Source: Agarophyton chilense
Lineage: Eukaryota; Rhodophyta; Florideophyceae; Gracilariales; Gracilariaceae
DNA: 61,030 nucleotides
NCBI GenBank assembly: GCA_030374765.1
Contig: JARGXX010000082.1
Coordinates: 1-61,030 of the forward strand
Direction: 5' to 3'
A program made the translations under genes and the position numbers. This document shows positions 1,105 through 59,462 of the stretch, in pieces (position 1 is the first letter of the stretch; every line of letters begins with the position of its first letter). Under the pieces are notes generated by a model that was given only the letters and a program-made list of their open reading frames with translations, ran no database searches and had not been told where the DNA came from.

Positions 1105-1874
1105 ATGTACGGAATCTTGTTCGACCGCATCACAGGGCGGTTGTACACCCGCTTAAATGGAGCACAGCGGAGGGGTACCATTCGAGACACAAAAAAACTA
1201 TCGAGGACCTTTCTTGTATCAAGAGAAACATCGTTTCCTGGAGTTAAACGGCCGTCGAACCTTCTTCGATTCTGTGGGTGAAAGTATTGTTGATGGAACT
1301 GGAAGACAAGGGCGTTTACGAGGAGTCGCAGGAGAAACGCATTCGTGATGAGCAGTGGAGAGTCATTGATAAAGGTGCGCCGATGTGCGAGGAAAACTAA
1401 CATTGAGTGTGACAGGTTGTGACGAAGAAATACGAGATAATGGATACGAAATGGACAGCACATTGTGAAAGAGCAGTGTTTGGAGGCCAACTGCACTTGT
1501 TATCTACATTCCATGTTCAAGTTGCAATGGCATCAAATGCCAAATAATATTTGCCAAACAGAATTGGCTGCGAGTTCAAATATAATCAACTTTGATTGGA
1601 TGATCTTGATGCCGAGACGGGCATTGTAAGGGTATCTCAAGAACATATTATTTTCACGGACGTAGGAAACTGCTGCGCATCCAATGCACACATTGTCGGT
1701 CATCATCTTCACATCAATAGAGCGTCCATTGTAGATACCGTGTACATCCACAGTACATAATTTGAGGTAATCTTTTGCGTATTTTCTGTAGATCCAGTGC
1801 ACATCATTTTGCCTTCAAAATTGTTTTAAGTTGACTTCAAAATCGATGTAATCTTAAATATCTTTGGAACATTT
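1105..1874. other. Transposase downstream region, no recognised gene
   Basis: Holds short open frames on both strands, the longest being an 89-codon minus-strand frame at 1533-1802, none of which I recognise. It is duplicated at 44640-45410 with one homopolymer difference (7 versus 8 A near 1192). That single base changes which plus-strand frames are open, which argues against strong coding constraint here. Confidence 0.5.
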
Positions 1875-2445
1875 ATGGCATATCACAGTGCCTCTCCGGA
1901 ACAGGACGTCAAGATAAAGAATTCACTGCTTTTCATCAGTGATCTCATATACATTTCCTCTTTTCAAAGGAATGAAGGAGGAAAGATGTTGGAGAAAGAG
2001 GACAAAAAGCACTTCTACGATTACTTCCCATGTTGCATTGTGGCCCACTTTCGACCGAAAGACTTCTGTAATGTTTACAGAGTTCCTCGGAACGAAGCCA
2101 ACTTAATGCCCGGGTCGGCAGAGGCGATCGAAAAAAATATGAAATGCGAATGCAACGAAATACTTCGTTTCTGGTGAACTAGAAATCTAGACTTGAAGCC
2201 CTACAACCCTGTTGATGGTGCCTGGTACAAAACTTCAAAGCAAAGATCAACCAAGAAACCTTCAAAGAGCACTCCGCGTTGTTTGGGGCGACGTGCAACG
2301 CCCATACTTGAGCTTTGATCCGGCAAGTCTCCCTACCAGCGTGGCTTCCCTGGAAACAATATTCAATGCCATTACAAAGGTAGAAGCCCATAAAGGGTTT
2401 ACACAGAAACTACAGGATAGCGTTTACGTTTTCGACAATATGTAA
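1875..2445 (+). pseudogene. Unrecognised reading frames downstream of transposase, copy A
   Basis: Two plus-strand frames, 1875-2177 (100 codons) and 2212-2445 (77 codons). The first contains an aromatic-rich stretch HFYDYFPCCIVAHFRPKDF and looks protein-like, but I cannot assign a family. It may be the end of the transposase gene or a second ORF of the same transposon. The second half lies in the patch that differs most between the two 17.5-kb copies. In copy B a third frame stays open across 45665-45720 where copy A has gained stops, so copy A looks like the more decayed version. Confidence 0.35.
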
Positions 2446-3346
2446 GAAAAAATGATTATTAAACAACAACAGAAAGCCTCACGCTCGTCGTATATTCCCT
2501 GAAAAGGTTTTCGTATTCAAAAGTCAATATACGGAACTGAATGAGCTGCACGATTATAGGCCATTCTATTCCATTACACAGTGACAGCCTAGAGAACTCC
2601 CTCAGCATTTCATTCCAGACATTTGATGTACACAGCATGACTCTCATTAAGACATCCGTGATGTTCTAATAGACGTCCTCAAGATATTCGGGAGATACTA
2701 GTAAGATGTATCTACAGTAAAATTGTTTAATCACATCTTAGGAATATATTATTATGGTGCAGTCAAGCAGTCTATTAAAGACGGCCGTCTCTACTTGTAC
2801 AAGCCTGTGCCCTATGAACCAGATTGATATCCTCGAGAAACCCGTTCGATTTTGGTTTCAGACATCTCAAATACATGGCATGACAATCAGTTGGACTTTC
2901 GAGATGTCCTGTAGACGTCTTTAAGATATTTAGAAGAGGTTAATAAAAGTTATTCGGTAGATCTCCAGCCCATATCCCTTTTCTTTCCTAATGATGTCTA
3001 TTGTGATTTCGCTTACATTATCAATCAATTAAACCATCAATCACGTGGGTCCTTATTCTAATAAGACTTTATAATTATAAACTCTAACATTATAATATAT
3101 TCTTAACATTCAGGTTGATTAATTAATGTTTCAAGTATCCCTCCTTTTAATTTATTGACCATTACGTCATATAGGCAGATGTCAACTTTGATCCGAACTC
3201 CTCAATATTAAGATTCAAATTAATATCCTGCCCCGATAGACTCCTACCGTAATAATAATGTTAAGTTATAAATAGTTATAGCAAAAAGCAAAGCGCCGTG
3301 AATGTAATACATTAATGAATCTGAAGATCGATGAAAGACCTTTGAT
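2446..3346. repeat. R-family terminal repeat, left copy (R copy 1)
   Basis: AT-rich, no gene. From about 2820 to 3346 this is a diverged copy of 10545-11110 and of 27165-27713, with shared landmarks 'attgatatcct.gagaa', 'gatgtcct.tagacgtc', 'ggtagatctccag' and 'aaagcaaagcgcc.tgaat'. A shorter copy of the motif around 'agacgtcc' also lies at 2630-2700. The same block on both sides of a 7-kb internal region makes R resemble a large non-autonomous LTR element, but no clear TG...CA ends were found. Confidence 0.6.
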
Positions 3347-4102
3347 TGTTTCTTGACAACGATGAGGAGTTCCAATCGAATTAGAAGGACTGAGGCCACC
3401 GCCATGTGTCGGTTCAGAACATGTGCCGAGCTGTTGGTGAGCCAACAGCAGGGTTCTCTACCCTGTACTTGGATAAGTTACAGTTTATCGCTGTTTTTGG
3501 TTTCGACAACGACTGCGAGGACGTGGTAATACGACGGTTGGACTGGACAGAATAAAAACAGTCCAATCCATATAGAATTTCCGTGTACACGAAAGTTCCT
3601 TGTACTACAAAACGTCGACAATCAAGCCAGCCCTACGTCTGGGGCCCAAACTTAAAGGTCGCATGATGTTTGTGCAGCAAACATTGCCCCATTTAAGACA
3701 TGATATCAGGCGTCTTGCCCAAAAGAATATTATCCTCACGCCTTCAAAATCTTACCAAGCCAACATCAAACTATGTTGACGTCACTAGAAGATGAAGCAG
3801 CAGAAGTAATCGCTTTTATTCCCCTTGCCTCAACCACATTCATGCCTCCAATTTGCAATGGGCGAGCTTTCGGTCCAGGTTTTGGTCAAGAATATGCATC
3901 ACAGACGACCAGTTTAATATGTGGATTGCAGCAGAATATCTGATGAATATATCGCAATAAATCTTAACGGCTGTATGCTTCTTGCTTCATGGTTTCTAAT
4001 TTTCTCGTATCAGAACACTTTTTGCCCTTGAGCTAAGAACTTTACATAAGTCTTGAGAATGGAGCAGACTTCGTTGCAGCCCCACCTGTATCGTTCGTAA
4101 AC

Positions 4103-4548
4103 TGTAACGAAATGACCGCTGGGATAGCGTACAGGTCTCGACGGGTGGTAGTGTGCTAGAGCAGATCCTAAGGTTCGAATCGTTGACGGCGGCCCTCCCA
4201 GAGTACTCGGTGCAATGGGCTGGCGTTTACTGCGTAGTCCTACAGGTTGGAGCTACGAAAACGACGGTTTGAAGACCAAAGGGCGGAACTAATATACCAA
4301 AGGGGGTTGATTAGTACCCTAACGGTACTTACCGTGCTTTAAGGGAGAAGCGCCACTCGAGCCAAGTACATAGTACTGGCGAGGCGCTGGGATCTCCCTG
4401 GCACTGTAATGCTAAACTATTACACTAATTAAAATAATTTAATAATCTACATGAGTCCACCTGAGGTCGACCCGTCCACGTGTCGTCTGTGAGATACCTC
4501 AGGGCCCGGCGGCTCACAGAGCTCAACCGTTGTCATCGCTCCTTCAGA
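4103..4548 (+). mobile_element. SINE-like insertion with tRNA-type promoter boxes
   Basis: A 446-bp block present here and at 47639-48084 but absent from the diverged R copy near 37092, where the flanks are joined. It is bounded by TAAAC on both sides (4098-4102 and 4549-4553), consistent with a 5-bp target duplication. It contains TAGCGTACAGG (4125-4135), a fair RNA polymerase III A box, and GGTTCGAATC (4172-4181), a perfect B box, 36 bases apart as in tRNA genes. The rest folds poorly as a tRNA, so this is a tRNA-derived head with an unrelated 3' body. No poly(A) tail is visible. Confidence 0.55.
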
Positions 4549-5445
4549 TAAACGCCAAAGCTGTACCATGTGCAAGCGGACAAATCTCGCCTTCGTTCCG
4601 TTCCAGCCCTTTCACAGTTCGCTTGGCGGCGATGGCTCCATCATCTCTTTCAGCGACTTTGGCACTCGTATGACACAAGCAAGACTATTAAAAGACTCGA
4701 GAATGCCATTTTGGATGATTGTGATTGATTTGAGATTCGAGTGCAAGGACAAAAATCAAAGATGCGAAGTATTGATGGGTTTGCATGGAAGTTTCCGTCT
4801 CTGCCCCGAATTGACTGTCCAAACACAAAGCCAGCAAAAAGAAGACATTGGCAGCCCAAACTTAATCATTTCTTTGCTGGCTTAGAGACAATTATTACTT
4901 TTAAGTCCCGTTTTAGTTTTTAACGTATTTCAACCCAAAGCGAAAATGAAATGCCTTTTTAGTCAATAAATGCCAGGTAGATGGCGAAGTCCTCGTAGTT
5001 GAAAAATCTAATACGAAGAAATCAATCTATGGAAGCAGGAAGTAGAAGAAAAAACGTACAACCTCGAAACCCTTCAAATCTTTTGACTAAATCCGACCCA
5101 ATGTGCAGAAAAGAAAAGAAAATTCACAAAAGAAAGAAGCTTGATAAACAATATATCTCGAAAAAGCTCAACAAAACCTATTCTTAGATGGTAACTATGA
5201 ATCAGAACTTGCCTTTTGATAAGGCATCTCTTATATGACGCATTAGGATTATTCTTTGAACTTCTGCTTCAAGCAGAAATAGACGTGTACATCCCCTACA
5301 AAGTAGTGAAACAAGTACTCTGTGACAAAGGTATAGCGAAGTGATTATGAGCTTTCCAGTGTTGAAAACTAAACCCACTTCTAAGAACTATTTCCAGCAC
5401 TTCTTAATGGGGCATAACGTTTGACCTGAATGAATCCAGCTAATT

Positions 5446-6562
5446 GTGTCGAACATTTGTCCAGCTCTCGCCAAGTTAGGATTGATTGTCGTGTCTTCTT
5501 TTTCGAGCACATCCGGCACCGCTAAAGAGCCCTGCGTGATGCTTTCGAACAATGATGACCCCATGTCTGTGTTTCTACGCCGATTAGATAATCGGCTTTT
5601 TCTGCGATTGACTCCGTTTTACGAAAAAGGTCTGCGTTTCCAGTCCACACCGAGTATCATCTTCGATTAATGTCCTTCTAGCCCGCTTTCCGCTCAACGG
5701 GTCTTCCAGCTCTACCACCTTTTCGTTAAAGCTCAAGGACACGTACGCCATCCGAACTCTGTCGTTTGTGTTTTCATTTACCTTTGAGGTGGATAATACA
5801 AATGGTCTTGCAACTTCGAAGCGCTGCGGTCAGCTGCGCTAACCATTTCGCTCCTGTATCAAGATATCGATACAAATACTTGGAACTAGGAAAATCGTTC
5901 TCTTCTACCAGGTACCGAACCACTTCCGACTAGTGCGCAATTTCCCAGAGGTGGACAAATTGTTGGCAAGGAGAGAAAACCCATTTGTTTCGCACCTGTA
6001 TATAAATTGGGTCTACGCAGCTGAAGAGCCGAAGCCACTCAAGTAGTTGACACCGACATCCTACCAGACCACCCCAAAAGCTGTATTCCGCCTCCCTTGT
6101 AGACGCTGAAGAGCTGGTCGAGCGGTACACTATGTTTCGCTCCCTCCCTGTTAAGAATAAACGGGATCCCACGGGAAGTCCCGGTTGCTGTTGTGGAGAT
6201 TTCGGTGCTCTCCAAAGAATCCATACTCGCCAGAAGCGTCCTTGGAATTGGAAGAAGTATGGTCCTTGCACCAAACTGCTCCGTTTCAAGTCTGGGATGA
6301 GCACTTCATCCTCACGAAATGGTTGCCTGCGCCTGGTTGGCTGTGTATGGCTGCCCTTGGATTCTCTGTTTCCTGCTATTATCATAGAATCTGGAAGATT
6401 CTTCTCGATTTAACGGTTTCTTCAAACGCCTGGAGGAGGCAGTATATGCGCAGAACTGCTGCAAAACCATTCTTGCTAGAAAAAAAAGAAGTTCCCTTTT
6501 ACGAAGACCATTCGAAGAAGCGGACATTTCGATATAGGAAGCGGATTTTCGCCCGTTATTAA
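5446..6562 (+). pseudogene. Degenerate membrane-protein-like frames inside R
   Basis: Plus-strand frames that look coding but shift repeatedly: a 74-codon piece at 5446-5670, a stretch around 5690-5830, a stretch at 5920-6040 and a 125-codon frame at 6185-6562. The last has a hydrophobic segment PAPGWLCMAALGFSVSCYY followed by a basic tail, like a C-terminal membrane anchor with a cytoplasmic end. I cannot name the family. The block from 6305 on is shared with R copy 2 (22645), so any capture of a host gene happened before R spread. A chance run of open frames cannot be excluded. Confidence 0.25.
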
Positions 6563-8429
6563 AATGAAGAATGGTAAAATGCGGAGTGTAACAGTTCTAG
6601 GACTCTTGATTCTGCTTATTTAAATTCGTTAAATAACAAGGGAAACGGTGATGCTTATGAAAGGTCCATATCTGGGAACAAAACACTTCCTTGTGGTCAT
6701 TGGAGAAAGAAGATGTAACTCAAATATGATTGGAGGATCTCATATGCACATATCCGTTTTACCGGGCAGTTCTCAACAATAGACAAAACAATCTGAACGG
6801 GTAGAACAGAAAGCTCTTTGGGCACGCAACTGTGGCGGTTACATTGTTGTTCTTTCTGAGCACTAAGATGCCTTCACCCGCCGTACAACAGGAGATCCTG
6901 TACCTTACGCATGCGACTGGTAAATCGAGGGAACTATGTCCTGAGTATAGATCGAAGCATACCCAAGCCTTTGTTTGCCTGTAGTTTTCAAATCGGCCTA
7001 TAAAAAGATCGCCATGTACATTGACAGGTTTGAAATTAGCACAATCTCATTTCTAGCTGGATATCGAGAGAAGTTTTGCAGCGTCTTTTTCTTGAAGTTA
7101 ATTTGGTTTTCACAAGTTATAGGAGACACGCAAAAAGAATGCAGCATTTCTGGTCGCAGAAAGCCTTTCCGTATCTTTCTGAGGAAAGAAAGCCTTTGTA
7201 TGGTGTAGCTTCTCCAATGTATTTCTTTACAGGGGCATCAAAACCAGCTTGCTGATATTCAAGTCCCGAACGACTTGCACGCCTCTATGTACACATACAT
7301 GACCTGTTTTCCCTGCCGATAGAACTCGAACTGGGCCGGACCAAATCTGAATTTCCGGAAACTATGCTACCCGAAACTCTGCTTTCCTCACTCCAGTATC
7401 CTACATGTTTAGTTTCCCCACATGAAAGGTCGCTCGCGAAAGATGCTGTAGAAGATGAAGTAGATAGTTTGTTTAGGTCCATGTAACCTTGATTCTTGGT
7501 ATCTGACAGGATTCTCGAATCGATACTACTTTTATATCTCACAACTTCCCGAAGACGTTCTGGTTGTGGAGCATCATAAATGAGCTTTTGAGATGGTAGG
7601 ATTCAGCAAAGACGTGATTCCAGGGCGAGGCACTTGCCAACTGCTAAATGCTTCATCGGTTTCTGTCTTGAGACCATTTTTCTTTGAAGGCAGGGACATT
7701 TGCAACTGATATATGAAACATCTCTCAATGTGCCAATGATATGTGGCTGAGGCTTGAGGAAAATTAGTCTATGGAGGAAAAGAGCTAAAACGCCGATGCC
7801 TATATCGTGTAAACATTTTAGTTGGGCACTTATTCGAGGAACACCTATAAATCTTAGAGAGGCCACAAACAGTGGTCATGAGGATGAACAACAATCTGAG
7901 TTTGTATTGTGGAAGTTTGGAGACAAAATTAGGTCAGCGTTGTGCAGACTTGTTGAAAACCCTCAGAGAACACTGTCAAGGTTTACACTTCGGTAAACGG
8001 TTTGTCTTTCTGCGATGATGACACGTAACCGATGTTCTTCTCAGTTCCCAGAAAAACAAAATGAAAATAACTCGAACCGAAATCCTTTACATATAGCGTC
8101 CTACCAGAACAATGTGCATTTGAGTACTACTACGGCATAAAAAATGTGACGAGGGTTGCTGAAGAGAGACATATATGCGGCTTCCTCCATGAACTCTCCA
8201 TCACAGCTTATTTCTGGCTATATTTGGTGACGGTTGTGAAAGATGAAAATCCTTCTTTATGGCCCTTATCATCTTCTAATCAAATCTTCCAACAGCGTAA
8301 GCATCAGAAAAGAAATTGAAAACTTTATTAAAGTCCATTAAGGAAACCTTATGAGTTATCCGAGCTCGGAGAAGGAACTATTATGAGGATCGCTGTTGTA
8401 CGTATTCGTCGTTCAGCTTCTCAAGCTGA

Positions 8430-8993
8430 GTGACGTCTTTCTCTTTAACGAATCAAAGCACTGCGCATGAACAAAATGGCTGGGTTATGACGGAGTTCAT
8501 CAAAAAAACATTCAAAGAGACACGAAAGATGCTACGGCTGAAAAGACGAAGAAAATTCGTGACAAATGTTCGTCTGGAAGGGTTAGCGAGCGTATCTTGG
8601 AAGACCCGCATGCTTGAAAAAGTGCACCTACGAAGGCAAATGGACGAACTCAACCGATGCTATCCGTCAATTCTTTTTACCTGAGTCAGACGTAGGAATT
8701 TTGGACAGGTTTCCTCATCGAAACAATTCTGCATAGCGTGGACACTCGAAGCATATCTAGAAGACTCGGATGACCAAAACGGTAACACAGGCTCGAGCAA
8801 TTCTCACTTGGAAGCCGCAGACGAAAACCATGGTTGTACCTGTCATCAGCCACGTAGCCTGAAATCAAGGCACTACGAGAACAGAAACCGCAACGTCAAC
8901 CGTAAGAGCATCTGTTACACAGACATCAAGCTCGTCCATTCTCGCATCAAAAATTCTTCTGCTGCCCCTTCCCTTCGGGGCCGACTTATGTGA
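8430..8993 (+). pseudogene. R-encoded basic ORF with one in-frame TGA, copy 1
   Basis: A single frame of 187 codons plus its stop, interrupted by one TGA at 8682-8684. The N-terminal part is very basic (KKTFKETRKMLRLKRRRKF), the middle is acidic and Asn-rich (LEDSDDQNGNTGSSNSHLEA), the C-terminal part is again basic and ends in SLRGRLM. R copy 2 (24805-25616) keeps both halves, the same TGA at the same place and the same last residues, although the two copies differ at many bases. The composition suits a nucleic-acid-binding or Gag-like protein, but no zinc knuckle or known domain is visible. The first codon is GTG directly after an in-frame stop; the first ATG is a few codons further in. Function unknown. 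Confidence 0.35.
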
Positions 8994-10430
8994 ATTAATT
9001 TGATTCATATGCCTCTTAAGCGGTTAGAATCCTTTTGCATACTTTTTTTTCAGGTAGTTCATCTTCTCTGTTTGTGTTTGTTTTTGTGTGGGTAGGTTAC
9101 TAGATAATAATTTAACTTACTGTGCGCAATGCCAGAGGTTTATTTTAAACCTGCGTATGGCGCGACATACCACTTTGTTTTCGGTCGTTCTATTTCTTTG
9201 GATCTTGGTATGGTTTCGAAGTTTTCCTATGACTCACTCTTTATATAATTCACATTGCAAAATCTCTCATGCGCGCCTAGTACTCCCCAAAACATATACT
9301 TCTTCCGTTTCCTTCGATATCTCGTTGCAGAGGGCCACCGTTTGAAACTGATACACCGCTATGAACTTTTCACAGCCCAACTTGATCTCCGAAGAAAAGA
9401 ATGCAAAATTCAAAACTCTACCATGTAAGTTTACCTACTTGAAACAGCATGATTCACCGTAATGTCCATTAGGCCCATTCCTCTCCAATGTTTTTGACTT
9501 TTTCGCAGATCCGACTCTGCGTGATCAGAACTCATGTCGGTGTCTTTTAGGTTTAAGATTATTGATCCAGTCAAATGTTCTGGAAAGCAGAAAGTAACAT
9601 TCCGAATTCTCTCAAGTCCACCAGTTCGTAATTCCAGTCTGCGACAGAGTCCTAACGTTCTAATGCTTCTCCTCTTTCACAGTCTGCCACCACACTACCA
9701 TTCCTCCCCCTCAAGATCTTAGGGCGCCGCAACCATATCGATGTCGTTCATCCTTCTACTAAAGCAGCAATGGACAGATCAATATATTCTTTTCTCAAGT
9801 GTGGCCAACTCTCTACACGACTAATGTTTAAACTAAACTGCATATCACTCACTGCCAAGTGTACCCACACTTCCTAAACCCCCTTGAAGACTTGATATCT
9901 CTCTTGCACGTTCAAAGTGGTTCTGAATTTATGAAAGTATGTGCCAGTTCTTATGCTCTGAATTCTAACGGATTTAAGCCCACCGAAGCTCTTTTAACAA
10001 TCGCAGAAATTCTCATTATTTGACTGCTCTGATGCGGATCTTCTAACCATAAAGCAAATTCATCGTTACATTTTACATGCGACGTCGATATTGGCTTGCC
10101 ACAAGGCGCGGTAGTGTTCTGATCGACATATGGACAGACCTACCTATATATGAATAGTTTAGAACTCTTACGGTGTTAATTCGAACTTGTTCTGGGCTAT
10201 AAGCTGACTTATTGGGTCTTTTGCTGGAGAAATTGAGAGCTAAATGTGGCTTTAATCTCGTCGCGAGTCCAACAAAATTGTTTGATACCTGGTAGACCTG
10301 ATTCTGAACATATTTCTAACAGAAAAAATAAACGAGGTGGCCTAGTTTTCGGCAACTGTGAATCAGAACGTGATCAAATTTAACACTTTTTTGAGACACA
10401 TTTTCATTGCATCTGGTTCACTTTTATAAG

Positions 10431-11110
10431 TTCATATATGGAGCATCTCTTAATGTTCGCATTTGGGACAAGTAGATGACCCACATGCAGTACTTTTTCT
10501 GGGCCATATTTTGTACACAAATAGTTGATCAAGTTTGGGCTTCGTGAAGCACATTGATATCCTTGAGAACCCCGTAAGATTTTAGTTCCGGACATCTAAA
10601 CTATATAGCATGTAGCATGACTGTCGGTCCGACTTCTGAGATGTCCTATAGACGTCCTTAAGATGTTCGGTAGATGTAAATAAAAGGTATTTGGTAGATC
10701 TCCAGTCCACATATTCGTCCGATTTGTCAGTGTTGTGTAATATGTTTTGCTGTGATCATGAATCAACTCAATCATCAATCAACTAGATCTTTATTTTAAT
10801 ACTACTTTATAATGATAAACTGTACCATTATAATAAAATATTAGATAAAGAAAACGAATTATTATACACGGGTTGATTAAGTGTTGTTTCAAGTATATCT
10901 CGTTCCGATTTTTTGACGAATTCGTCAGATATGCTGATGTCAACTGTAATTTGGACTCCTCAATATAAATATTCAAGATAATATCCTGGGCCGATAGACT
11001 CCTACCGTGATAATAATGTTAAATGATAAATAGTTGTAGCAAAAAACAAAGCGCCATGAATAGGGTGTTTCATTAATGAATATGATGATTCAGAGAAGAC
11101 CTTTGAATGC
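10431..11110. repeat. R-family terminal repeat, right copy (R copy 1)
   Basis: Matches 2820-3346 and 27030-27713. It contains an inverted repeat TTATAATG (10807-10814) and CATTATAA (10826-10833) with an 11-base loop, also present as 7+7 at 3069-3095. Similarity to the other R copies stops at about 11110, where Copia-B sequence begins. No gene. Confidence 0.65.
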
Positions 11111-11289
11111 TTTTGTCCATGCCTTTGAATCGGCACGTGACATTGCATCACGACATGACGGGGGAATGTCGTCACTGGCAGTGAGCAGAGCGGTTCCTCG
11201 CCACCAAGACGTTTGTTTACTCCGTTCGCGCGTGTAACGTCGCAATTACTGTGTCTCTTGTTCAGGTGAAGCAACGTGTTCTACCACTG

Positions 11290-12622
11290 GGGATTTGGCT
11301 GTCTCAAGATCGAGTGGTCCATCACATGCTGTTGTTGGTGTGCAGGGATCCTCTTGTGCCGGATCAATAACTGTGGAAGAGTTTTCGAGTTCATTTGACT
11401 CAGATTCACCCGAAACTTTAACATCGACATTGTTAGAGTTGTCAAAACTGTTTAACGGGTCATCCGTGCAGTTCAGCTCAGTAAACTATACATCCCGTGA
11501 CACTATTTTTTCCTTCTTATTCATATCCTACAGCTTATATCCGTGCCACTCGGCAGTGTTTCCGATAAAGACAGATTCCTTGGCGCGCTTCTCTAATTTC
11601 TTCAGCTTGTGGTGCACCACCTTATACCATCACTTGCTTCTAAAGACTGGCAGATTGCTGAGATCAGGCTTGCGTCCACTCCAGAGCTCAAATGGTGTTA
11701 CATCGCTCGGCAATGCTTTGCAAGTGACTCGAGAGGGCCATGTCCATGAGTGTGCGGTTGAACCTTTCGGCGAGCATGTTCTGGTGTGGGTTGTACGGCA
11801 CAGTTCGCTGATGTTCAACACCGAGATGTTCTAATTCTGCAGAAAACTTTCGAGAAAAATATTCACCATCTTTGTCTATGTGTAATGCAAGTAGCACATT
11901 CTCACCTGCGGTGACGGTTTTCACTTCTGTTCCTGTTTCGTTCTGCACGAACTTGAGCCTCTGAATAAACATCCGAAACACCTCATCTTTGGTCTTGAGC
12001 ATGTAAACGTAGCAGTACCTACTGTACTCATCTATGAATGTGACAAAATAACCCGAGCCTCCGAAGTAAGCTAGCTCCATTGAACCAGAAACGTCCGAGT
12101 AAACCACTTCGAAGAGCTTTGTTGCGCGTTGCCTCCTTGCTTGAGAGTAGGAGCGCGCGTGATTTGGTCTACTACACACCAATCGCACAAATACATATTC
12201 TGCTTCAAGTTCACATTAAGACCAGATACAAAACTGTTGCGAGCCATTTTCATGATACAATCTTCATTCACATGAGCCATTCTAGCATGCAACAGAGATA
12301 AGTCGGACGGCAGTGCGATACCTCGATGTGTGAGCTGATCAGAAGTAGTGCGAAGGTGGTACAAACCTTTGATGCGACTGCCATGAGCAATGAATTCGGA
12401 GCCCTTGTATTCATTCACATGAAGCCTGTTAAACACAACATGCGCTCCCATGTCCCAAAATGCTGAAACTGACAACAGGTGGTACCTTAAACCAGGTACG
12501 TGCACAACTGGGTTGAGTCTGGACATGCGCTTCGAACCATCAACTGCGAGGTCTAGCTCAACACAGCCTTGTCCACAAGACTCAAGTTTGCAATCAATGC
12601 CAATACTAACACCGGAAGACAT
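11290..12622 (-). pseudogene. Copia-B integrase (pre-integrase zinc finger and catalytic core)
   Basis: Minus-strand reading gives the zinc-binding region (HARMAH near 12290 and CDWC near 12180), then the catalytic core with VYSDVSG, HIDKDGEYF and NMLAERFNRTL. These hold the three acidic residues D, D and E in correct context, so the catalytic triad is intact. A frameshift near 12135 separates zinc finger and core. A second break near 11690 joins MDMALSS to KALPSDVTPFELW with about 30 residues missing. The C-terminal GRKPDLSNLPVF block and an acidic, Ser-rich linker follow to about 11290 with in-frame stops. The integrase would insert element cDNA into host DNA, but this copy cannot be translated in one piece. 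Confidence 0.85.
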
Positions 12623-12897
12623 TCTGTGTTTTCATAGGACTGAAGCATTGATTTGTAATGAGTAATGTGTGCAATTGCGCCAGAGTCCACGATCCACTGG
12701 CTATTGGTGGCCTTGTGCAAAATGGTCGCAATGAGACAAACTAGATAGGAATCATCATCATCTTCGCCGCCCTGGTCGCAGAGTGCGGAGTGAAAACTTG
12801 TGTTAGCAGACGATTCTGGATCCTTTTTGGCCTCATCGCATTGCTTCTTGACGCAGTTTCTCCGGATATGACCCTTTTTGCCACAACAAACACGCAA
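12553..12897 (-). pseudogene. Copia-B Gag zinc knuckle and aspartic protease
   Basis: A 114-codon minus-strand frame. It begins with a CCHC-type knuckle, CCGKKGHIRRNC, where the expected first cysteine position is Arg, so metal binding is doubtful. It then has an acidic spacer and the protease active site WIVDSGAIAHIT near 12700, with the D-S-G catalytic triplet intact. A frame change near 12600 leads into the pre-integrase region. The protease would cut the Gag-Pol polyprotein. It is joined to the upstream Gag core only by a frameshift. Confidence 0.8.
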
Positions 12898-13532
12898 TCG
12901 ACTTCCATCGCAGGTTTCTGCCTACTAAGGTGGCGTCATTTACAGATTCGTCTTTCGTGCGATCCATTATGAGCTGCTGTTCTTGCAGAAAACGACTCTT
13001 GGCGAATTCGAGAGTGAGTGGACGGTCACATATGGTAGTATCGATTGCGACAATCAGGTGCTCAAAGCGTTCAGGCAGCCCAAACAGAATAGCTATGACA
13101 ATTTCTTCCTCCTCAATGATGACGTCCATGCTTTTCATGTCTGACGCAAAATGTCGAACACTATTGATAAACTGTAGCTTTTTCTACTCGTCACGCATCC
13201 TGGAGTTTTAGAAAGAACGTCTGGAGTTGATTCTGTTCAGTAAAGAATTGCTCTGAAACACATCGCAAATCGCCCTCTACATATATATATGCGACACTTT
13301 TGCTTTCAATGACGTGATCCAAATGATCGTCATTGAGGCTCAGTCAGATGATAGCTCTAGCGTTTTCATCGTACTTCCTCCACGTTGAAAGCTCCTCTCC
13401 GTCGGTGGGTCTCGTTGAGCTCAGATGTTCGTCAAGGTCTTTGGGCGCAAGTAACAGCTCTATTTTCTGCTTCCAAACATGGAAGTTGCCCTCACCAAGC
13501 TTTTCCATCTCCACGCCACTGAACGAGTCCAT
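12833..13532 (-). pseudogene. Copia-B Gag core
   Basis: Starts at ATG 13532 with MDSFSGVEMEKLGEGNF...WKQKIELLL, the usual start of copia-type Gag proteins of the UBN2/DUF4219 group. The frame meets a TGA at about 13344 and further stops before 13140. It resumes in another frame at 13138 with LFGLPERFEHLIVAIDTT and LTLEFAKSRFLQEQQL, the conserved helical Gag core. Gag forms the virus-like particle that packages element RNA. Multiple stops and at least one frameshift make it a pseudogene. Both 17.5-kb copies share every lesion. Confidence 0.8.
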
Positions 13533-13556
13533 AGCGACATTCGCTTGAATGGGGTG

Positions 13557-14690
13557 TGGATCTCACGGAGTAAACACAAAACACGACAACGGCAAAACTA
13601 AATAGAACAACAATAAAAAAATTCAAAGATTGACCTGAAAAGAGTCAGTCGGCGCAATGGCACGGCTTCCTATAACCGCTGCCCAAGGGAGTTGGACCCC
13701 TGGCTTCCAAAGCTTTTTTGGGTAGATGAAGGTTTCTGCAGTCTACCTTCTCTCACGCTAAAGGAAGAAGGCGCGTTGCTCCCTACGAGGCGTCCATTAA
13801 ATGGCTTGTGACCAAGGATATGCCTCCACCATTTTAACCCTCCCTGACCTCTTGCAAGAACTTGTGCAACCTTGAAAGCGAAGCTACTTCAACACCCAAA
13901 GTACGTTCCTGACGCGCAACCAATGCAGATTGCACGTGGCTTGATCCTGAAAAGGAGTTCAGCCTGCAGAACGTAGCCTCCCCGTTTAGCACGGATCAAA
14001 AGCTCTTTATAGTACCTGTTCCGACAGTCCAATCGCCCACTAAAAATGCCAGGCTCATAAACAAATTCAACAACCCTACCGGATGCAGTACGCAACGGCA
14101 CCCCGTCCACAGATGCACCCGGGGTTCTCACCAGCTCTTACCGATCGTCACTGTTATCCACTCTAAAAAGAGCCATCGGGGAGCCCGCTTGAGGGAACAC
14201 CTGCTTTTGTTCAAGCCACCAGGCTAACCTCCCCGTCGCACTGGATAAAGATGATGACCAAACACAAACGATTTCTGAGCCCAAAACAGAAGGCTCAGAC
14301 TTCAGCGAAACAAGAGTCGCACCCCGAAGAACTAACACGAAAACCACACGGGGTTCCAAAGACGAAACAAAAAAGGGGCGACTCTAACAAGAACAGAACG
14401 CGAAGCAGAATGAAATCGACAACGACGGCCAAAACAAAGTCCCAAAGCAAAAAATAAACCATAAAACACGTCGAACCACGACCGCCAAGACGCTTTTCGG
14501 AAAGAACGCCAACCAAAAACATAACACAGATATCAACACCGATTAAGTACAGCAATCAAGACACCCAACTCGGCGACGGCGAAATGAAGCGAAATCGAAA
14601 CGAAACAACGAAAACGATACGACAGAGCGGGTATACAACGGTGCGGGAGAGTGGGGACAAACGGAATTTGACGGCAGATGTCAGCGGGGC
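13557..14690. other. Copia-B untranslated leader
   Basis: Between Gag start and primer-binding site. At 1.1 kb it is long for a copia leader. The part at 14250-14680 is strongly A- and C-rich on the plus strand, giving long but low-complexity open frames on both strands (for example 14251-14457 plus and 14295-14555 minus). I treat these as compositional, not genes. Confidence 0.5.
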
Positions 14691-14703
14691 TAGGCCCATA
14701 ACC
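14691..14703 (-). promoter_or_regulatory. Copia-B primer-binding site (half-tRNA iMet type)
   Basis: The minus strand reads GGTTATGGGCCTAGC directly after the LTR end ...CTACATCA. It is complementary, with one mismatch in 15, to the anticodon arm of eukaryotic initiator tRNA-Met (GCTGGGCCCATAACC). Priming from a cleaved initiator tRNA half is known for Drosophila copia and yeast Ty5. Confidence 0.7.
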
Positions 14704-15103
14704 TGATGTAGGTAGATGAAAAGGTTGAGGGTTGTAAGGGAAGGGCGCCAGCTCTGGCTAGAATTTACTTGGAGGTTGTAGATCTTCGACTTATATACTA
14801 CTTCACTCTGATAGCCATCCAACCTTAAGCTCCTGTAAACCCTAGATTACAAGCCGAGGATATTCAATACCACGAATCATATTCCACAATGACATTAAAG
14901 CCTAACCCAAACTCACTTCCACATACTACAGCAAGGTACAACAGTGCACAATACACCATTACAATGACTTGAGCACAAACTCAACGTGCTAGCACATATT
15001 AAATGTAATCCGCCTCCATGCACGATCTTGTTCCAACAAAGCACTGCATGCCTTCTGTAATACACAAGAAAATATATATCCATTCTTCCAGAACATTCCA
15101 TAG
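14704..15103 (-). repeat. Copia-B 5' LTR, 3' portion
   Basis: Ends (minus strand) in ...CATCTACATCA next to the primer-binding site. The LTR is cut by Copia-A after 400 bp and resumes at 22064-22187, where the minus-strand start TGTTGGATATCG is a typical copia LTR start. Total reconstructed length is about 524 bp. The 3' LTR has been lost, so this is inferred from the ends and not from LTR-LTR comparison. Confidence 0.6.
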
Positions 15104-15311
15104 TATGGGAAGCAATCGTATGCAGAGCGAGAGGGCTGTCAGTCTAATGTGTAGCATGCACTTGTAACGCGCGGTGGAACCGACGAAGATGGAACAGGCA
15201 CAATTTGTCTTCCCTTGCTCCTCTCTCCTCAGTGTCTCGAGGTAGAAGAAGGGTGAAGTTCAGTATGTAGCACCGGCGGCATTGGGCCAGATGGCAATCG
15301 TGTATTGCACA
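15104..15311 (-). repeat. Copia-A 3' LTR
   Basis: 208 bp, aligning without gaps to 21856-22063 with 44 differences by hand count (about 79 percent identity). On the minus strand it starts TGTGCAATACACG directly after the polypurine tract and ends ...CTTCCCATA. Confidence 0.8.
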
Positions 15312-15321
15312 ACCCCCGCCT
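15312..15321 (-). promoter_or_regulatory. Copia-A polypurine tract
   Basis: The minus strand reads AGGCGGGGGT immediately upstream of the 3' LTR start TGTGC. A G-rich tract in this position is the expected primer for plus-strand DNA synthesis and fixes the LTR boundary. Confidence 0.7.
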
Positions 15322-15629
15322 TGGCGCCATAAAAAAAGTTTTTATTTTTTGAAGTGCGGCCAAATTCTCAAGAACTCCTTTCTGACCCTAAGCGCAATAT
15401 TTTTTGGCGCATCTTCCTCACGGGCCAGGTATCTCAAATAACCCCCCATGCCTATCTTCAGCGTTTTGCGATTACCCCCATTTTTCCGTTCGAAAACCGC
15501 ACACGCGCCGAAAACGCTTTATTTGCAACGTCACTGCTTCGATCTGAAAGTGTGAATTCTTGACTCGGAACTGGACGTGTCACCTCTCTTCGAAAAGTGT
15601 GGACGACTTTCGCTCAGGTGAATCCATCG
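15322..15629 (+). promoter_or_regulatory. Possible promoter region of the antisense cassette
   Basis: The 308 bp between polypurine tract and H3-like start. It has A/T runs (15331-15352) and the 8-mer TTTGGCGC at 15403-15410, a match to the E2F/DP consensus TTTSSCGC; a palindromic TTGGCGCCA lies at 15321-15329. E2F sites are common upstream of S-phase genes, histones included. No TATA box is clear. Promoter activity is inference. Confidence 0.3.
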
Positions 15630-15926
15630 ATGGCTCGAACTAAGCATACGGGTCGCAAATCTGTTGGCCGAAAACCCCCACCGCGCCAGCTTGCAGGCAG
15701 AGCGGCAAAAATCACAAGCGAGACATATCTTGACCAATACCTTAACAAGAATATTGTCAAGGTTCTCTGTTCGAAACTGCAGCGTGGCCTGAGGAAAATC
15801 TACGCAATCACATTGGAAGGCAGAAACAATCTCGTGCGATTTAGCGAAAACGAAGCGATTATTCTTCTCGGGCGCAGGATACTCATTTTATCCGGCCGTT
15901 TCGTGGCACGCAGTTTGGAGGGTTGA
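15630..15926 (+). CDS. Histone H3 tail-like protein, antisense in Copia-A
   Basis: 98 residues from ATG 15630, although the frame is open from 15597. The start ARTKHTGRKS, a conserved K at position 14 and QLAGRAA at 19-25 align without gaps to the histone H3 tail (ARTKQTARKS...K14...QLATKAA). Residues equivalent to R2, K4, T6, R8, K9, S10, G12 and K14 are kept. After about residue 27 the similarity ends: there is no H3 histone fold, and the remaining 70 residues are basic and hydrophobic with no family I recognise. So this is a tail mimic or tail fusion, not a working H3. It lies antisense between RNase H and polypurine tract, and its TGA overlaps the next ATG. It may act in the nucleus as a decoy for H3-tail readers or modifiers; that is inference. 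Confidence 0.65.
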   Translation: MARTKHTGRKSVGRKPPPRQLAGRAAKITSETYLDQYLNKNIVKVLCSKLQRGLRKIYAITLEGRNNLVRFSENEAIILLGRRILILSGRFVARSLEG

Positions 15927-16978
15927 TGATGTTCCGATTGGACCTTACAGAGGCTTTGGACGACGACGACGATCCCGATATCAGAATTGAGTACAACGAT
16001 TGGATGATCGAGAAGTTATGGTATTTGGGAGGAGGTCGTGGTAAAATTAAGGACCAAATCTATGCTCTGGAGCATGTCACTAACGTAGTGTGCCGCATCG
16101 ATATCCATACTTTCCGAATCGAGTACAGTCAGGCAGTTGGAGGCGGTGCGTCGAGAAGTAGGGTGACGTATAATGAGGAAGGCGCAGAAGAAACCATCTA
16201 TTTGGGAGTTAAGGACCGTTATGAAGCGACCAAGAGCATTTAGGCTACTTGCAACGCAAAGCCAGGTCAAAGGCCCACCGTGTTTCAACCCGAAGCGCAG
16301 ATGCCGTCGTCGGGCGTCCGATGTTTCCATCTCCTTCATACGTCCGTGCAGTTTCGCGACGAGACGTTTCTGTGCCTTAAAGCTTCTCTAAGTATTGCAT
16401 TAGCTCTCCCCATTAGGTCCGAGAAGGCTGCTCAGTGTTGGGCGTATCTCGTCGATCGTGTTACGAAAAACGCAGAAGATAATGAGATGTACTTGAACGC
16501 CGTTGCAGGTCTTGGGTTTAGTGATATTCTTGAGCTTGACTATTGGAACCGGAAGGGGCGAGGGGAGGTCCGAGGGAAGTTTCGTGATCTCAAGGATATG
16601 CAGAGATTTGTTCGGGAAAAGACGCGTGTCATTATCCTCCATTACCTTCGTGATGGGAATGAACACCGAGAAGAAAAATTAGATTTGTGGAACTTCCGCG
16701 ATAGTGGAAACGTCTTCCTTGTCAGTCTTCAGGCCATTGACGGGGACCTGCCTGCGATTTGCATAGATGGGGAGCGCAACATGATTATTGATCCAGTGGA
16801 CAAGTGTCACATGGATCTCATGCAGGTTGCTCTCGAGTCCTGTGTTGGATCAGACCGTTCTTCCAGTCATATTGTAGACTGTCGCGTATTGCGTTTGCTC
16901 CCAGGGAGGAAGAATGGGAAACGGGCTCGCCGCGGGAAGATACATCGTCACCAAGAAGGTTCTTCAAACAGAGTTTGA
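15926..16978 (+). CDS. Antisense accessory ORF with one in-frame TAG; peptidase-like C-terminal half
   Basis: The ATG at 15926 overlaps the stop of the H3-like frame (TGATG), with a second ATG directly after. The first part, to TAG 16241-16243, is 105 residues with an acidic run LDDDDDPD. The same frame continues without another stop to 16978, with an ATG at 16301. The second part contains FLCLKASLSIAL near its start and, about 160 residues later, PAICIDGERNMIIDPVDK. This spacing recalls cysteine peptidases of papain-like fold (Cys near the N-terminus, 'HxxxI...IIDP' near the end), but the expected His is Pro or Ala, so catalysis is doubtful. The C-terminal end is a basic cluster (GRKNGKRARRGK), a likely nuclear signal. 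The family assignment is a guess. Confidence 0.5.
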
Positions 16979-17084
16979 AATCTTTTCTATAGTAGATCCT
17001 AACCCTTAGGGTTCCATGCCTTAAGATGGTGGCCCATAGTAGATATGATAAATTTGCTTAGTATGGCTTGAAATATATCTTGGT

Positions 17085-17640
17085 TCGATTGAGTAAATGA
17101 ATGATGATTGCCCTTTGTCAACACGTTGGCTTAGTGCAGACTTCCTGTTCTCCAACGCATCGAGGATATGTCTCCAGTTTTAAAGGAGTCACGGAGGCGC
17201 GACAGCGTGGGGCGCAATCAGTAGTCTCGGCATTCGTGAAGGGTGGTAATTGTTGAGTATAAACCAAATGCGTCCACGTAAAGGGCGAGCGAACGAAAAC
17301 CCGATGCAAGAACTTCAATGCATTTCTTAATTAGTATGGATCTGTCTGCGGCTTCTGTTGCCGCAAGAATTTCGGCACCAATTGAACTAAAAGATATGCG
17401 TCTTTTCTTCAAGCTATGCCAGTCGACGATGTGATATGAAACGTTTTCACCTTTGGAGAAGGGGATGCCACTAATATAGCCTGTTTGATCGTAGGATGAT
17501 TTCCAGTGCTGGCTTCAGAGATCGTCACTATGTGGCAAACGTTCATGTTATCTTATACGATCGCAGATCTCGGAGCCATGTACTCAAGGACCGGGACGGA
17601 GCTTTAGGACGAGGTTGAGGATCTAGTTTTCCTTCAAAAG
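17085..17640 (-). pseudogene. Copia-A RNase H
   Basis: Minus strand. DQTGYISGI, then WHSLKKRR and SSIGAEILAATEAADR (17320-17420) are the core of copia-type RNase H, including the 'SS..AEI.A' helix with its catalytic Glu. The end shows LRDSF and ANVLTKGN, the conserved terminal 'ADxLTK' block. In-frame TGA (after CRDY) and TAA (before ANVLTK) and further stops upstream of DQTGY break the frame. The enzyme would remove RNA from the RNA-DNA hybrid. The copy at 60620-61030 differs by one A fewer near 60716 and one T more near 60979. Confidence 0.75.
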
Positions 17641-18420
17641 ATGCTTCATGCCCATCTCTGCGACCAGCTGCTGCATGAAACTAGAAGGGTACGCGGCTTG
17701 AAGCAGCACACCATGGCCGAAGTAGTTGAGTTTTCCAGCAAGAGACTGGGTATCTCGGACATCTTCTTGGGTGCATGGATCCTCTGACTGTTTCCTCCGA
17801 TCCCTCGAGATTGGAATGGGAGCGAGCTTTTACATAAACTCTGCCATGTAGATCTCAATCGAGAAGTCTTAATATGACGAATCCAAAGGCGGCTAAAGAT
17901 AATCTCGTTCTTGAAGATGGCTTTGCCGACCTTGAAGTGAGCTGAGAGAGCCTCGAAGAATGTTTTAATCTCACTCTTTTATCCGGCAAGGAGAAGATCG
18001 TCCACCAATTTGGCCAGGTGTAGAGAAATATGCCCGTGGTTGTTCGACAATAGAAACATCTCTGGCATACCAGGGACAGTAAGAAATTCGTACTCGCATA
18101 GCCATTGCTCGATGCAAAGCTGCCAAGAACGACTGGACTCTACGAGGCCATTCGCAGGCTTGAGTAGCTTCCATACTTCGTCTACAAACTGTTCCCATCC
18201 CTTTGGAGGCCGCATGTATATATCTCGTTTGAGGTCGCCTCATTGCAAATACGCTCTAGAGAGATCAATGTTTACAAGGTAGAGGTGTAGTAAAGTTGCA
18301 AGGGAAAGCAGAAGTCTGCTGCAGGTAAATTGGGCCGTAGAGGAGTCAGATCGAATGTTATCTTTTTGGGAATCTCGATTCCTATGGGGTTCCAGTCAGC
18401 ACTTGAGCTTAAGCTTACCA
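17640..18420 (-). pseudogene. Copia-A reverse transcriptase
   Basis: The minus strand starts with FVTKFDGESGKLKLKCRLVP (shared with the end of the preceding frame), then YLVNIDLSRAYLQ, MRPPKGWEQFVDEVWKLLKP (17979-18215 frame), and KLVDDLLLAG, the polymerase box with its two aspartates (LVDD for the usual YVDD). Thumb and connection residues such as SLAGKLNYFGHG follow near 17740. At least three frame changes and in-frame stops occur, so it is not translatable as one protein. Role: cDNA synthesis. Confidence 0.8.
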
Positions 18421-19990
18421 CTCTCCCCATCGAACTTCGTCACGAAGAAGTGGTGGGAGGAGATAATATTTGCATTTCGCGGGAGTCCTTTGATGGAGAC
18501 TGGCTTGTATGCCTTGGCATCAGAGTAGTTTCTTTTCTCTGCTTCGATGGCCTTGTCGGTTATCCATGGTCGGGCAAACTGGAGCTTGACTTCTGTGGCT
18601 GGCTGGTCTACAATGAACTTCTTGATCTGCTCAAGAATTCTTTTCACCGAAGACAATAGATTTTCGCCTAGGGTAGGGAATCTAAGCGAGGTGTCACCAA
18701 CACCTCTGCAGAGTTGCAGGTTTCTGACATCCATTGAGGGTGCAATCATAGCAGTTTTGTCTTCTTTGGACGCAAACACGGATAAAGAGAACGGATGCAT
18801 AGACCAAAAGTTTGGTTCGTCCGATATGTTTAGGTCGAAACTTAAAGGGTCTTGTGTGTTTTTCTCAGGGAAGTCTGTGACTTCTTCATCCTGAAGAGGC
18901 GGAAGAGAAGAACAATCAGAATAATTCCTTTCTTCAGGGACTGCGATTGGTTCTTCTTGTGCGTTGGTGTCCGCGAAGAACGAGTATCCAAGCTCCTGTT
19001 TGCCCAGTTTTTGTAAAAGAAATGAACGCGGGACTAACCTTATGTCTTCGTAGGCGATCTGATGCTTTGGTCCCTGGAGATTTTTTCTAGGAGAGACCGA
19101 CCTTATATGGTCAGTAGTAGTGACCACAAATTTCTTGTGCCAGGCACCATGTTTTCCGACTCTCTTGAAGACATATACCTGATTCTTTGGTACCAGAAGG
19201 TGTTGTGATAAAGGGTACGATGGCCTGATACGAAGAAGGGTGTGTACGGCACGCCTGGAAAGTTGTTTGCTGTAAAAAGCAAGGAGCTTCTCTGGTAGCA
19301 TCTGCTTGGGTACCCAAAAAACAGAAGGAGTGTAGCAGTGAACAAGCTGGACGATGCTGAGTGACTTGTTACCATACACCAAATTCTTAAGGAATGTGGC
19401 TTTTGAGAGGTTCCCTGAGTCCGTGCGATACACTTGACGAGTTTTCCTCAGATGAGGTTCGTCGAGAAGGAACGTTTGGACAAATATACGGATGGTCTCG
19501 TTGCTCGATTGGACGCTTCCAATTTTGTTTTGGCGTCGAGCAGGCCACGGTTCGAATGATATCTGATTCTCGCCACCCAATCGCTGAATTGAGACGTTAT
19601 CGAACTCTGAGTCTCCTGTTAACTTTGATGGAGGCCCAAAGACATCAAAAAAGTGAACCACAATCATGTGAGCGGTATCAGTCATATCCTTTAAAGTCAA
19701 TAAGACATTAACGGAGAGACCGGTTGATAAATCGTTTATATGCAGAATGGGGAGCTTTCGAAACTCGCGTATGAATAGGAAATCAACTTGAGGGTGCTCG
19801 TTGTACTCATCCATTATTTTCTTGAGTGACATCTTTCGAGAATGTAGTAGGCGGTTAGACCTTTTGCATGAAGGGCAAGATTGTAGGCCTCTTCGAGCTC
19901 ACCAGCAAGTGTTCGATTTAGAATCCCACCTCGACTGCAAAGCTTTTTCATGTCCTTGGCGGAGAGATGGGACTGAAAGTGAAGCTTTTT
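18396..19990 (-). pseudogene. Copia-A integrase and integrase-RT linker
   Basis: Minus strand. The pre-integrase part (SAKDMKKLCSRGG...ELEEAYNLAL) ends at a TAA just after CHSRK near 19815. The frame shifts by one into the 478-codon frame 19832-18396. That frame has ILHINDLSTGLSV and HFFDVFGPPSKLTGDSEFDN, a degenerate catalytic core with the second Asp in 'TGDSEF'. The region expected to hold the catalytic Glu (usual form 'NGKVER.N') reads NKIGSVQSSNETIR, so the Glu appears lost. A 200-residue acidic, low-complexity linker follows, then the start of RT. Integrase function is therefore unlikely, although the frame stays open over 1.4 kb. Confidence 0.75.
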
Positions 19991-20574
19991 GGCGAAACGA
20001 CGGGCATGGGTTCGATCGCTTGATCCATGCCGTCCTTGCCAGATAGTTTGGCGATCGGATGAGAAATCGTACAGAGAAAGGAAGAATGAGAATAAACGAA
20101 GGATTTGAACGAAGGTTTTATCGAAGGAAGGACAAATAAGTGTGTTTGGCGGTCAATGTCTTCTCTTAGGACGTATATTGACAGAACTGCGTCATCCCGA
20201 AAGATTCCGACCGAAACGGGCACTACATGCGTTTTGTCCGAAGTCATGAGGTCCGAACGTGACACTATGTCGTTCCCAAGTAGCAAAGGACCGTCGCCTT
20301 CCGTAATGTAGAACTTAATGTCTGATTCCACATCGTTGAGTCCTTTGATCTTCAACACCCAAGTTCCAAATACCAGTTTTGGATTTGAACATTCTCGATC
20401 ATCATCGTGATATAAGGAGTCATAGTCAAGGTCTTCAACGTGAAATTGGATGCCAATTGCGATTGATAGAGCAGCGGCAGAGTCAATGCTTCGCACAATA
20501 TGGGGACAACAAATGTCAATGAAGGGGTTAGGATCTCGCGTACCACTAACCACACCAGAAGGAGCCCCAACCAA
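19948..20574 (-). pseudogene. Copia-A protease region
   Basis: A 208-codon minus-strand frame. FIDICCPHIVRSI stands where retropepsins have the 'D-T/S-G' loop, and DGPLLLGNDIVSRSDL is the later hydrophobic 'LLG.D' motif that packs against the active site. The Gly of the catalytic triplet is replaced by Cys, so activity is uncertain. It lies between Gag and integrase, as expected for Ty1/copia. Confidence 0.65.
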
Positions 20575-21840: not shown

Positions 21841-21855
21841 AGCTGGGTCCATAGC
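21841..21855 (-). promoter_or_regulatory. Copia-A primer-binding site (half-tRNA iMet type)
   Basis: The minus strand reads GCTATGGACCCAGCT directly after the LTR end. It is complementary to the initiator tRNA-Met anticodon arm with a few mismatches (plus strand GCTGGGTCCATAGC versus GCTGGGCCCATAACC). This is less exact than the sites of Copia-B and Copia-C. Confidence 0.5.
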
Positions 21856-22063
21856 TATGGGAAACAGTCGTACGCAGAGCAAGAGGTCTGCCGGTCTAAT
21901 TTCTACTATGCGCTTGAAACGCGCGGTAGAACCGAGGAAGATGGAACGGGCACAAGGTGCCCCCTCTTGCTCCTCTGTCTACAGTTTTTTAAGGTGGAGC
22001 AAGGGTGTGGCTTAGTATGCAGCGCCGGTGGCATTGAGCCAGGTGGCAATCATGTGTTACACA
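21856..22063 (-). repeat. Copia-A 5' LTR
   Basis: 208 bp, the gapless partner of 15104-15311 with 44 differences. On the minus strand it begins TGTGTAACACATG. Confidence 0.8.
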
Positions 22064-22187
22064 CATACAGCCTGTACTATGTATTCAACATAAGATCTCG
22101 AAAGCGTGGACACGTGTATACGGCAGACTCCTACTACCTTCCCACCAACTACAGTGACAGCACTTATCAATCATACGATATCCAACA
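22064..22187 (-). repeat. Copia-B 5' LTR, 5' portion
   Basis: Remaining part of the Copia-B LTR beyond the Copia-A insertion. The minus strand starts TGTTGGATATCG at 22187. No gene. The boundary rests on the TG...CA ends and on the target duplication of Copia-A. Confidence 0.5.
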
Positions 22188-44500: not shown

Positions 44501-44639
44501 CTGTGATGGTTCTGAAGTTCAACCGTTCAACATGTATTATAGGGTCATACATGAGCTTTGGGTGGTCAACGTCTCGTACCAAACGCCAATGGAGCAAGTA
44601 ACATTCTCCAGAACCTACCAAAGTTCAAGGTTCTATTAG
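41589..44639 (+). pseudogene. tnp2-like (CACTA-type) transposase, longer copy
   Basis: ATG 41589 opens an acidic, Ser-rich region (MVVTIDDGDYEDP, SSSSRSDSSDSRSES). A frame change near 42020 leads to 42085-42531 (GFLFQDAEDPLYDWQPDES). The same phase then continues through stops at 42529, 42562 and about 42748 to LYVFLTFSSDGVEV, KKSLWTLMFTILNYSPEYQSQ, VLLGALVPGSHDTELFDLFFSPLVND and ADWPAPSKMIG. These match, in order, the tnp2 core ('DGV...S.WP..L.ILNLPPE.R...L..GL.PGP...FL.PLV.EL', 'DLPA'). After further breaks, YDPTHQWLPDWAKHLVAL and RAIWGRPPESFKYIWGFKAE lead into the DUF4218-like end described for 1-1104. It is a pseudogene; the part after 43531 lacks the small indels found at 1-150. Confidence 0.7.
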
Positions 44640-59165: not shown

Positions 59166-59462
59166 ATGGCTCGAACTAAGCATACGGGTCGCAAATCTGT
59201 TGGCCGAAAACCCCCACCGCGCCAGCTTGCAGGCAGAGCGGCAAAAATCACAAGCGAGACATATCTTGACCAATACCTTAACAAGAATATTGTCAAGGTT
59301 CTCTGTTCGAAACTGCAGCGTGGCCTGAGGAAAATCTACGCAATCACATTGGAAGGCAGAAACAATCTCGTGCGATTTAGCGAAAACGAAGCGATTATTC
59401 TTCTCGGGCGCAGGATACTCATTTTATCCGGCCGTTTCGTGGCACGCAGTTTGGAGGGTTGA
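59166..59462 (+). CDS. Histone H3 tail-like protein, copy B
   Basis: Identical in sequence to 15630-15926, including the ARTKHTGRKS start and the TGATG overlap with the next frame. Confidence 0.65.
   Translation: MARTKHTGRKSVGRKPPPRQLAGRAAKITSETYLDQYLNKNIVKVLCSKLQRGLRKIYAITLEGRNNLVRFSENEAIILLGRRILILSGRFVARSLEG

Follow-up and report, generated by a model that had tools for sequence, protein, structure and literature searches.

Histone mimics are known from viruses; the NS1 protein of influenza virus, for example, carries an ARSK-type C-terminus. Giant viruses encode histone doublets, and virus-encoded histones keep the histone fold. Bracovirus encodes a histone H4 (PMC9145170). Accessory coding sequences of another kind are present in LTR retrotransposons of plants. 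These antisense additional open reading frames (ORFs), located between pol and the 3' LTR and termed aORF-3R, include gene23 of Grande and the corresponding frames of RIRE2, Retand and PvRetro13, and the Grande product is nuclear according to a review (PMC7264820).

Here we describe an antisense gene in a lineage of Copia retrotransposons of the red alga Agarophyton chilense, whose product begins with a stretch resembling the N-terminal tail of histone H3. With influenza NS1 it shares a short H3-like tail, in both cases carried by a protein that is not a histone and is encoded by a genetic parasite. This is one mark of a histone mimic, the other being recognition or modification by histone enzymes or readers of the host. 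In contrast to NS1, the Copia tail is N-terminal, spans 26 residues, includes both the K4 and the K9 context and belongs to a retrotransposon. Virus-encoded histones likewise represent histone-derived sequence in a genetic parasite, but the Copia gene has no globular domain. Plant aORF-3R correspond to it in position, orientation, presence in most copies, conservation and orphan sequence (PMC7264820). They differ from the Agarophyton gene, which has the H3-tail start, an algal host and kin in both Copia and Gypsy elements; no histone tail is described for plant aORF-3R in the accessible part of the review (PMC7264820).

The window, i.e. the whole analysed stretch of 61,030 nt, contains a Copia element on its minus strand. 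The element is delimited by LTR-like direct repeats, 79% identical, at about 15106..15311 (3' LTR, with TG...CA ends recognised by eye) and about 21855..22064 (5' LTR; 21848-22063 in the repeat comparison). A purine-rich minus-strand stretch at 15312..15325, adjoining the former, is probably the polypurine tract, judging by eye. The decayed reverse transcriptase-RNase H region occupies 17005..18506 (minus strand) and is 60-65% identical to its relative P0004, which matches RVT_2 in Pfam (6.9e-20), as do the relatives P0005 and L031. Judged by eye, the upstream pol ORF (18396..19832, minus strand) resembles integrase as far as the point where the reverse transcriptase begins; upstream pol ORFs of the window copy and its relatives gave no match to Pfam integrase models. 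In pol proteins of two loci (L027:7515-8513 and L031:726-2384), a stretch upstream of the reverse transcriptase resembles Tudor_FRX1 at 17-18 bits, below the cut-off of 25.9; it could be an integrase C-terminal domain or a methyl-reader. A second, different Copia element, with gag pre-integrase and rve matches, lies at 11688-13532 on the minus strand. The contig ends are duplicated (positions 1-17494 correspond to 43531-61030 with 99.68% identity) and contig C81 is 99.6% identical to window positions 14000-20239. These duplicated ends, together with copies on C14, C106 and C81, reflect either tandem repetition or an error of assembly. A search against plasmids returned no match.

Between pol and the 3' LTR of this element, on the opposite strand, lies an ORF of 98 amino acids (15630..15926, plus strand) that starts MARTKHTGRKSVGRKPPPRQLAGRAAK; a second copy in the duplicated contig end is found at 59166..59462 (plus strand). 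The Met of MARTKHTGRKSVGRK is the first ATG of the ORF, and the open stretch upstream of it has no in-frame ATG. Host H3 with a canonical tail, encoded at three places in the genome (L009-L011), served as reference. Without its Met, the window tail aligns to residues 1-26 of host H3 without gaps and with 16 of 26 positions identical, including K4, R8, K9, S10, K14 and Q19-A21; when the tail was shuffled 100,000 times, this value was never reached. Met and the 26-residue tail thus occupy 15630..15710 (plus strand). The following 26 residues share no identity with H3. Taken alone, the window ORF has no PDB match at E 0.001, and residues 1-45 of host H3 searched against the genome detect the window copy at E 0.0125; the window tail by itself is therefore marginal in database searches and the case rests on its relatives. 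One of them, P0002, matches residues 1-30 of H3 chains in PDB at E 1e-5 (phmmer). Pfam searches revealed no histone domain, and four copies compared past R26 have 0 of 26 identities, so that the N-terminal tail of H3 is present and the globular histone fold absent. An earlier note, made from the letters of the window, had read this ORF as an H3-tail mimic devoid of the globular domain and encoded antisense in an LTR retrotransposon. The resemblance, the missing domain and the antisense position between LTR-like repeats all hold up. The remaining part of the ORF, in that note about 70 unrelated residues, turned out to be the truncated, frame-broken beginning of a longer gene (about 448 codons), appearing unrelated because the window copy, compared with its relatives, is disrupted by a shift of frame at about residue 84 and by a later in-frame stop. 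The ORF is the first open piece of this broken gene; the second, past the frame break, spans 15923..16243 and the third, the C-terminal part, in which the Cys and the Asp known from relatives are present along with the Lys/Arg-rich end, 16280..16978 (both plus strand).

When the genome (79.8 Mb in 135 contigs) was searched with the 98-residue ORF, 61 match rows were obtained at E 0.001, a single copy being in some cases split over several rows. The plastid gene content of the assembly, with a 488-residue rbcL and rbcS- and cbbX-like frames after it, indicates an alga with a red-type plastid, probably a red alga. The ORF occurs in identical form at four places, two in the window contig, a third on C14 and a fourth on C106. 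A subset of the match places, 20 loci of 9 kb and 20 shorter ones, was taken for comparison; one of them (L026) is near-identical to the window and was removed from the counts, which leaves 39 loci and the window, 40 copies altogether. Similarity of the long loci to the window begins at positions 15100-15111 in 17 of 20 cases (exceptions are L026, L035 and L041). Full gene length among relatives is about 448 codons, yet the frame read from the position of the tail is interrupted before about codon 448 in all 20 long loci, the longest open stretch being 377 codons (L024). Since the frame is broken in every one of the 20 loci followed, the H3-tailed family looks extinct in this genome. A search of 5.8 billion proteins, including EukProt, in which candidates sharing short words were scored, gave no match to the H3-tailed Copia gene, and there is no sign of its present expression.

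The association of the gene with pol was examined from the pol side. The best 85 of 1492 candidates were scored, giving 90 rows, so that the counts refer to the best-scoring places; 57 rows were used, and those with at least 59% identity were merged by eye into 35 places, four of which (C82, C14, C81 and C106) are the near-identical window element. Comparison with these places covered 43 of 105 gene rows; the remaining rows adjoin none of the five places lacking the gene. In 30 of the 35 best-scoring places the antisense gene is located within 1.5 kb of pol, in the position characteristic of aORF-3R. The two genes are arranged tail-to-tail, and complete copies of them are typically separated by about 30 nt. 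The earlier note had left open whether relatives of the element carry the frame; they do, and the genome matches and the 30 pol places rule out an ORF confined to a single element. Relatives of the C-terminal part are also present in a second Copia clade (pol identity 46-51%), where 5 of 11 places have one at the same antisense position. No H3-like N-terminus was found in L071 and L072 of this clade, nor in the similar L073, for which no pol was scored; the frames of these loci are broken. At pol identities of 43-44%, none of the six rows used had an antisense relative, and none was found in one 1.1-kb downstream stretch.

All 26 tail codons are covered in 27 of the 40 mapped copies, 22 of which are free of stops there. 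These 22 tails are identical to host H3 at 15-21 of 26 positions; nine contain exact ARTKQTARK and six ARTKQTARKS. The H3-identical residue prevails at A1 (29/29), R2 (27/30), K4 (28/31), R8 (29/35), K9 (30/35), S10 (25/35), K14 (24/36), Q19 (32/38), K23 (30/38), A25 (34/38) and R26 (25/38), retention being poorer at G13 (17/35), A15 (12/35) and R17 (18/36). Three H3 residues are changed throughout the family: T11 (kept in 1/35), K18 (0/37) and T22 (0/38). K27 is retained in none of 38 copies, and from there to position 44 only 0-2 copies match at each position shown. With the K9 region kept and everything from K27 onward lost, the first ARKS motif of H3 is retained and the second is not. Even at the most diverged place, on C120, where the gene is in part 29% identical to L030, an H3-like stretch is recognisable (54.5% over 22 residues, L067). 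At the nucleotide level, seven copies match host H3 at 47-56 of 81 positions over the tail and at 13-17 of 69 directly after it. This divergence and the sharp edge at R26 rule out a recent insertion of a host H3 fragment, which the earlier note had considered; moreover, the most distant pairs of copies differ at about half of their synonymous sites.

Protein-level constraint was estimated by pooled pairwise NG86 comparison of the 40 copies (780 pairs; the pairs are non-independent and the values therefore descriptive). The frame of the gene has a dN/dS of 0.44, whereas the two remaining forward frames, taken as controls, give 1.00 and 1.05; for the tail the values are 0.54 versus 1.14 and 0.92. 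The frame thus does not decay neutrally across the family, an outcome under which, according to the earlier note, the mimic idea would fall. One reverse frame is also low (0.56, tail 0.67), as expected where the complement mirrors a coding strand; over 24 copies this frame contains 291 stops and the gene frame 95. Binned by distance, the tail ratio falls from 1.39 among pairs less than 0.12 apart (32 pairs; whole frame 0.66) through 0.62 (131 pairs) and 0.51 (368 pairs) to 0.47 above 0.3 (246 pairs). Such a course would be as expected if the protein was constrained while elements moved and drifted after insertion, the small numbers being a warning. Codon phases point in the same direction. Among 18 copies, tail differences in the three phases amount to 0.154/0.175/0.239, and the 285 nt directly upstream of the gene give 0.182/0.201/0.192. 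The resulting phase ratio of the tail, 1.45, exceeds the maximum of 1.36 found in upstream 78-nt windows; with all 40 copies it is 1.27 (half-sample range 1.14-1.44), and in the rest of the gene it is higher, 1.39-1.63. Constraint on the tail is no stronger than on the rest of the gene (dN/dS 0.54 against 0.44 overall).

The last point agrees with a reading in which capture was passive: captured 5' sequence from an H3 gene would have supplied only a start codon and an N-terminus, and the tail, whose dN/dS lies slightly above that of the remaining gene, would have no role as a mimic. The genome does contain captures of this kind. An H3 fragment is present in another repeat family at about seven places, of which four were examined (L074-L077, on C113, C77, C75 and C31); these are 84-90% identical to each other and have no match to the Copia loci. 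Three of them cover H3 codons 1-43, preceded by some 14 nt of 5' sequence; their nucleotide identity is about 80-85% and their frame is broken. The fourth contains only a later part of H3. Captured 5' DNA of H3 thus lost its frame in those copies, whereas in the Copia family the frame of the tail is kept. The tail stays in frame and H3-like even between copies more than 30% apart, and its codon-phase ratio stands above that of the sequence upstream; with this evidence against it we regard passive capture as unlikely, although it is the strongest of the competing explanations.

The C-terminal part of the H3-tailed gene has distant relatives elsewhere in the genome, at about 30% identity. One of them, P0006, is encoded on the antisense strand, immediately downstream of an integrase of the Gypsy type (H2C2 6e-17, rve 9e-10). 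This Gypsy relative exists in four near-full copies, 96-100% identical, two of them uninterrupted, with open frames of 471 codons. The Gypsy family was observed at C92:376215-377486 (L063), at L069 and also on C4, C3 and C135, and a shorter form of 276 codons is present at five places. P0006 matches a EukProt protein, P0007, at 98%, so the collection that yielded no H3-tailed Copia protein does contain its Gypsy relative. The name of P0007 cites GEZJ01002355.1, apparently a transcriptome record, and the Gypsy relative thus appears to be transcribed, on one strand or the other; the predicted start of P0007 lies downstream of the N-terminal 25 residues of P0006.

Cys, His and Asp residues line up between the Copia and Gypsy versions in papain-like order, and this C...H...D pattern could represent a putative cysteine-peptidase-like active site. 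At the position of the His, present in most relatives, the window copy has Pro. Conservation of the three residues among decayed copies is average (ranks 67, 200 and 112 of 341), Pfam and PDB searches of the C-terminal part returned nothing convincing, and two single-sequence AlphaFold models (mean pLDDT 36.5 and 35.1) were too weak for a fold search. The C-terminus of the H3-tailed protein is rich in Lys and Arg, from which a nuclear location may be predicted.

The N-terminus of the Gypsy relative is basic and identical to H3 at 9 of 27 positions (p 0.0015 by shuffling, 0.0044 if M and A are kept in place, in one unplanned comparison), a likeness that is suggestive only. It could represent an intermediate stage or the remains of a tail, and as an intermediate stage it would fit a convergent origin, in which a basic DNA-binding segment at the N-terminus grew H3-like without descent from an H3 gene. 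We consider this improbable, as the identity observed in each of four copies was unmatched by 100,000 shuffles and the alignment has no gaps, starts at Met and ends sharply at R26; convergent mimicry would in any case be mimicry all the same. That the antisense region works as an RNA, for instance in antisense regulation of the element, with the ORF incidental, is very improbable in view of the constraint on the reading frame, of the codon periodicity that the gene displays along its length and of its protein relatives in Gypsy elements, even if antisense transcripts are discussed for such regions in plants (PMC7264820).

On balance, we favour the explanation that this Copia lineage carried an antisense accessory gene of about 448 codons, a chimera of an H3 tail and an orphan protein, which engaged host readers or writers of the H3 tail. 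The position of the gene, the identity of its tail, its constraint at the protein level and its relatives in two classes of elements are observed directly; binding or modification of the tail and a resulting benefit to the element are putative. What stands of the mimic proposed in the earlier note is thus the likeness to H3 and the constrained frame, its action as a mimic being inferred and the window protein itself a decayed fragment.

A free N-terminal ARTK...ARKS is what H3K4 and H3K9 readers and writers bind. After removal of Met, the protein would display A1-R2-T3-K4...A7-R8-K9-S10, and such a tail could be recognised by host readers or writers of H3K4 and H3K9. Recognition would bring the protein to the silencing machinery or keep this machinery occupied, and silencing machinery engaged in this way may allow easier expression or integration of the element. 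A role as decoy or bait ranks slightly above tethering to chromatin. In a more specific and rather doubtful version, the H3 tail was joined as bait to a pre-existing antisense protein, whose domain, possibly peptidase-like, would disable or redirect the readers or writers attracted and so let the element escape from silencing.

Domains of candidate partners were found in the host genome: 9 PHD matches, 86 SET matches, of which many belong to a repeated ORF, and also chromo matches, for which the best 150 of 1935 candidates were scored. The repeated ORF, with a SET-like domain of about 25-30 bits (for example C10:2496-2972, C25:6076-6552 and C96:11155-11631), is multicopy, often open over 1141 or 1043 codons and partly located near contig ends; it is perhaps a subtelomeric mobile element.

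Antisense accessory ORFs are known and histone mimics are known; we did not find their combination reported. The full-text literature searched, mostly without subscription papers, contained no report recognised as a histone tail in a transposon among the matches listed. We therefore file the gene as an aORF-3R with an added H3-tail module.

If our reading is correct, transposons too would imitate the marks used to silence them, as so far known from viruses and host proteins, and the long-unexplained antisense accessory ORFs would gain a concrete, testable role at chromatin. Which host readers are relevant would be predicted by the residues lost (K18, T22 and K27) and those retained (K4, R8, K9 and K14). 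These observations suggest that a jumping gene of this alga once imitated the tag by which its host switches genes on and off.
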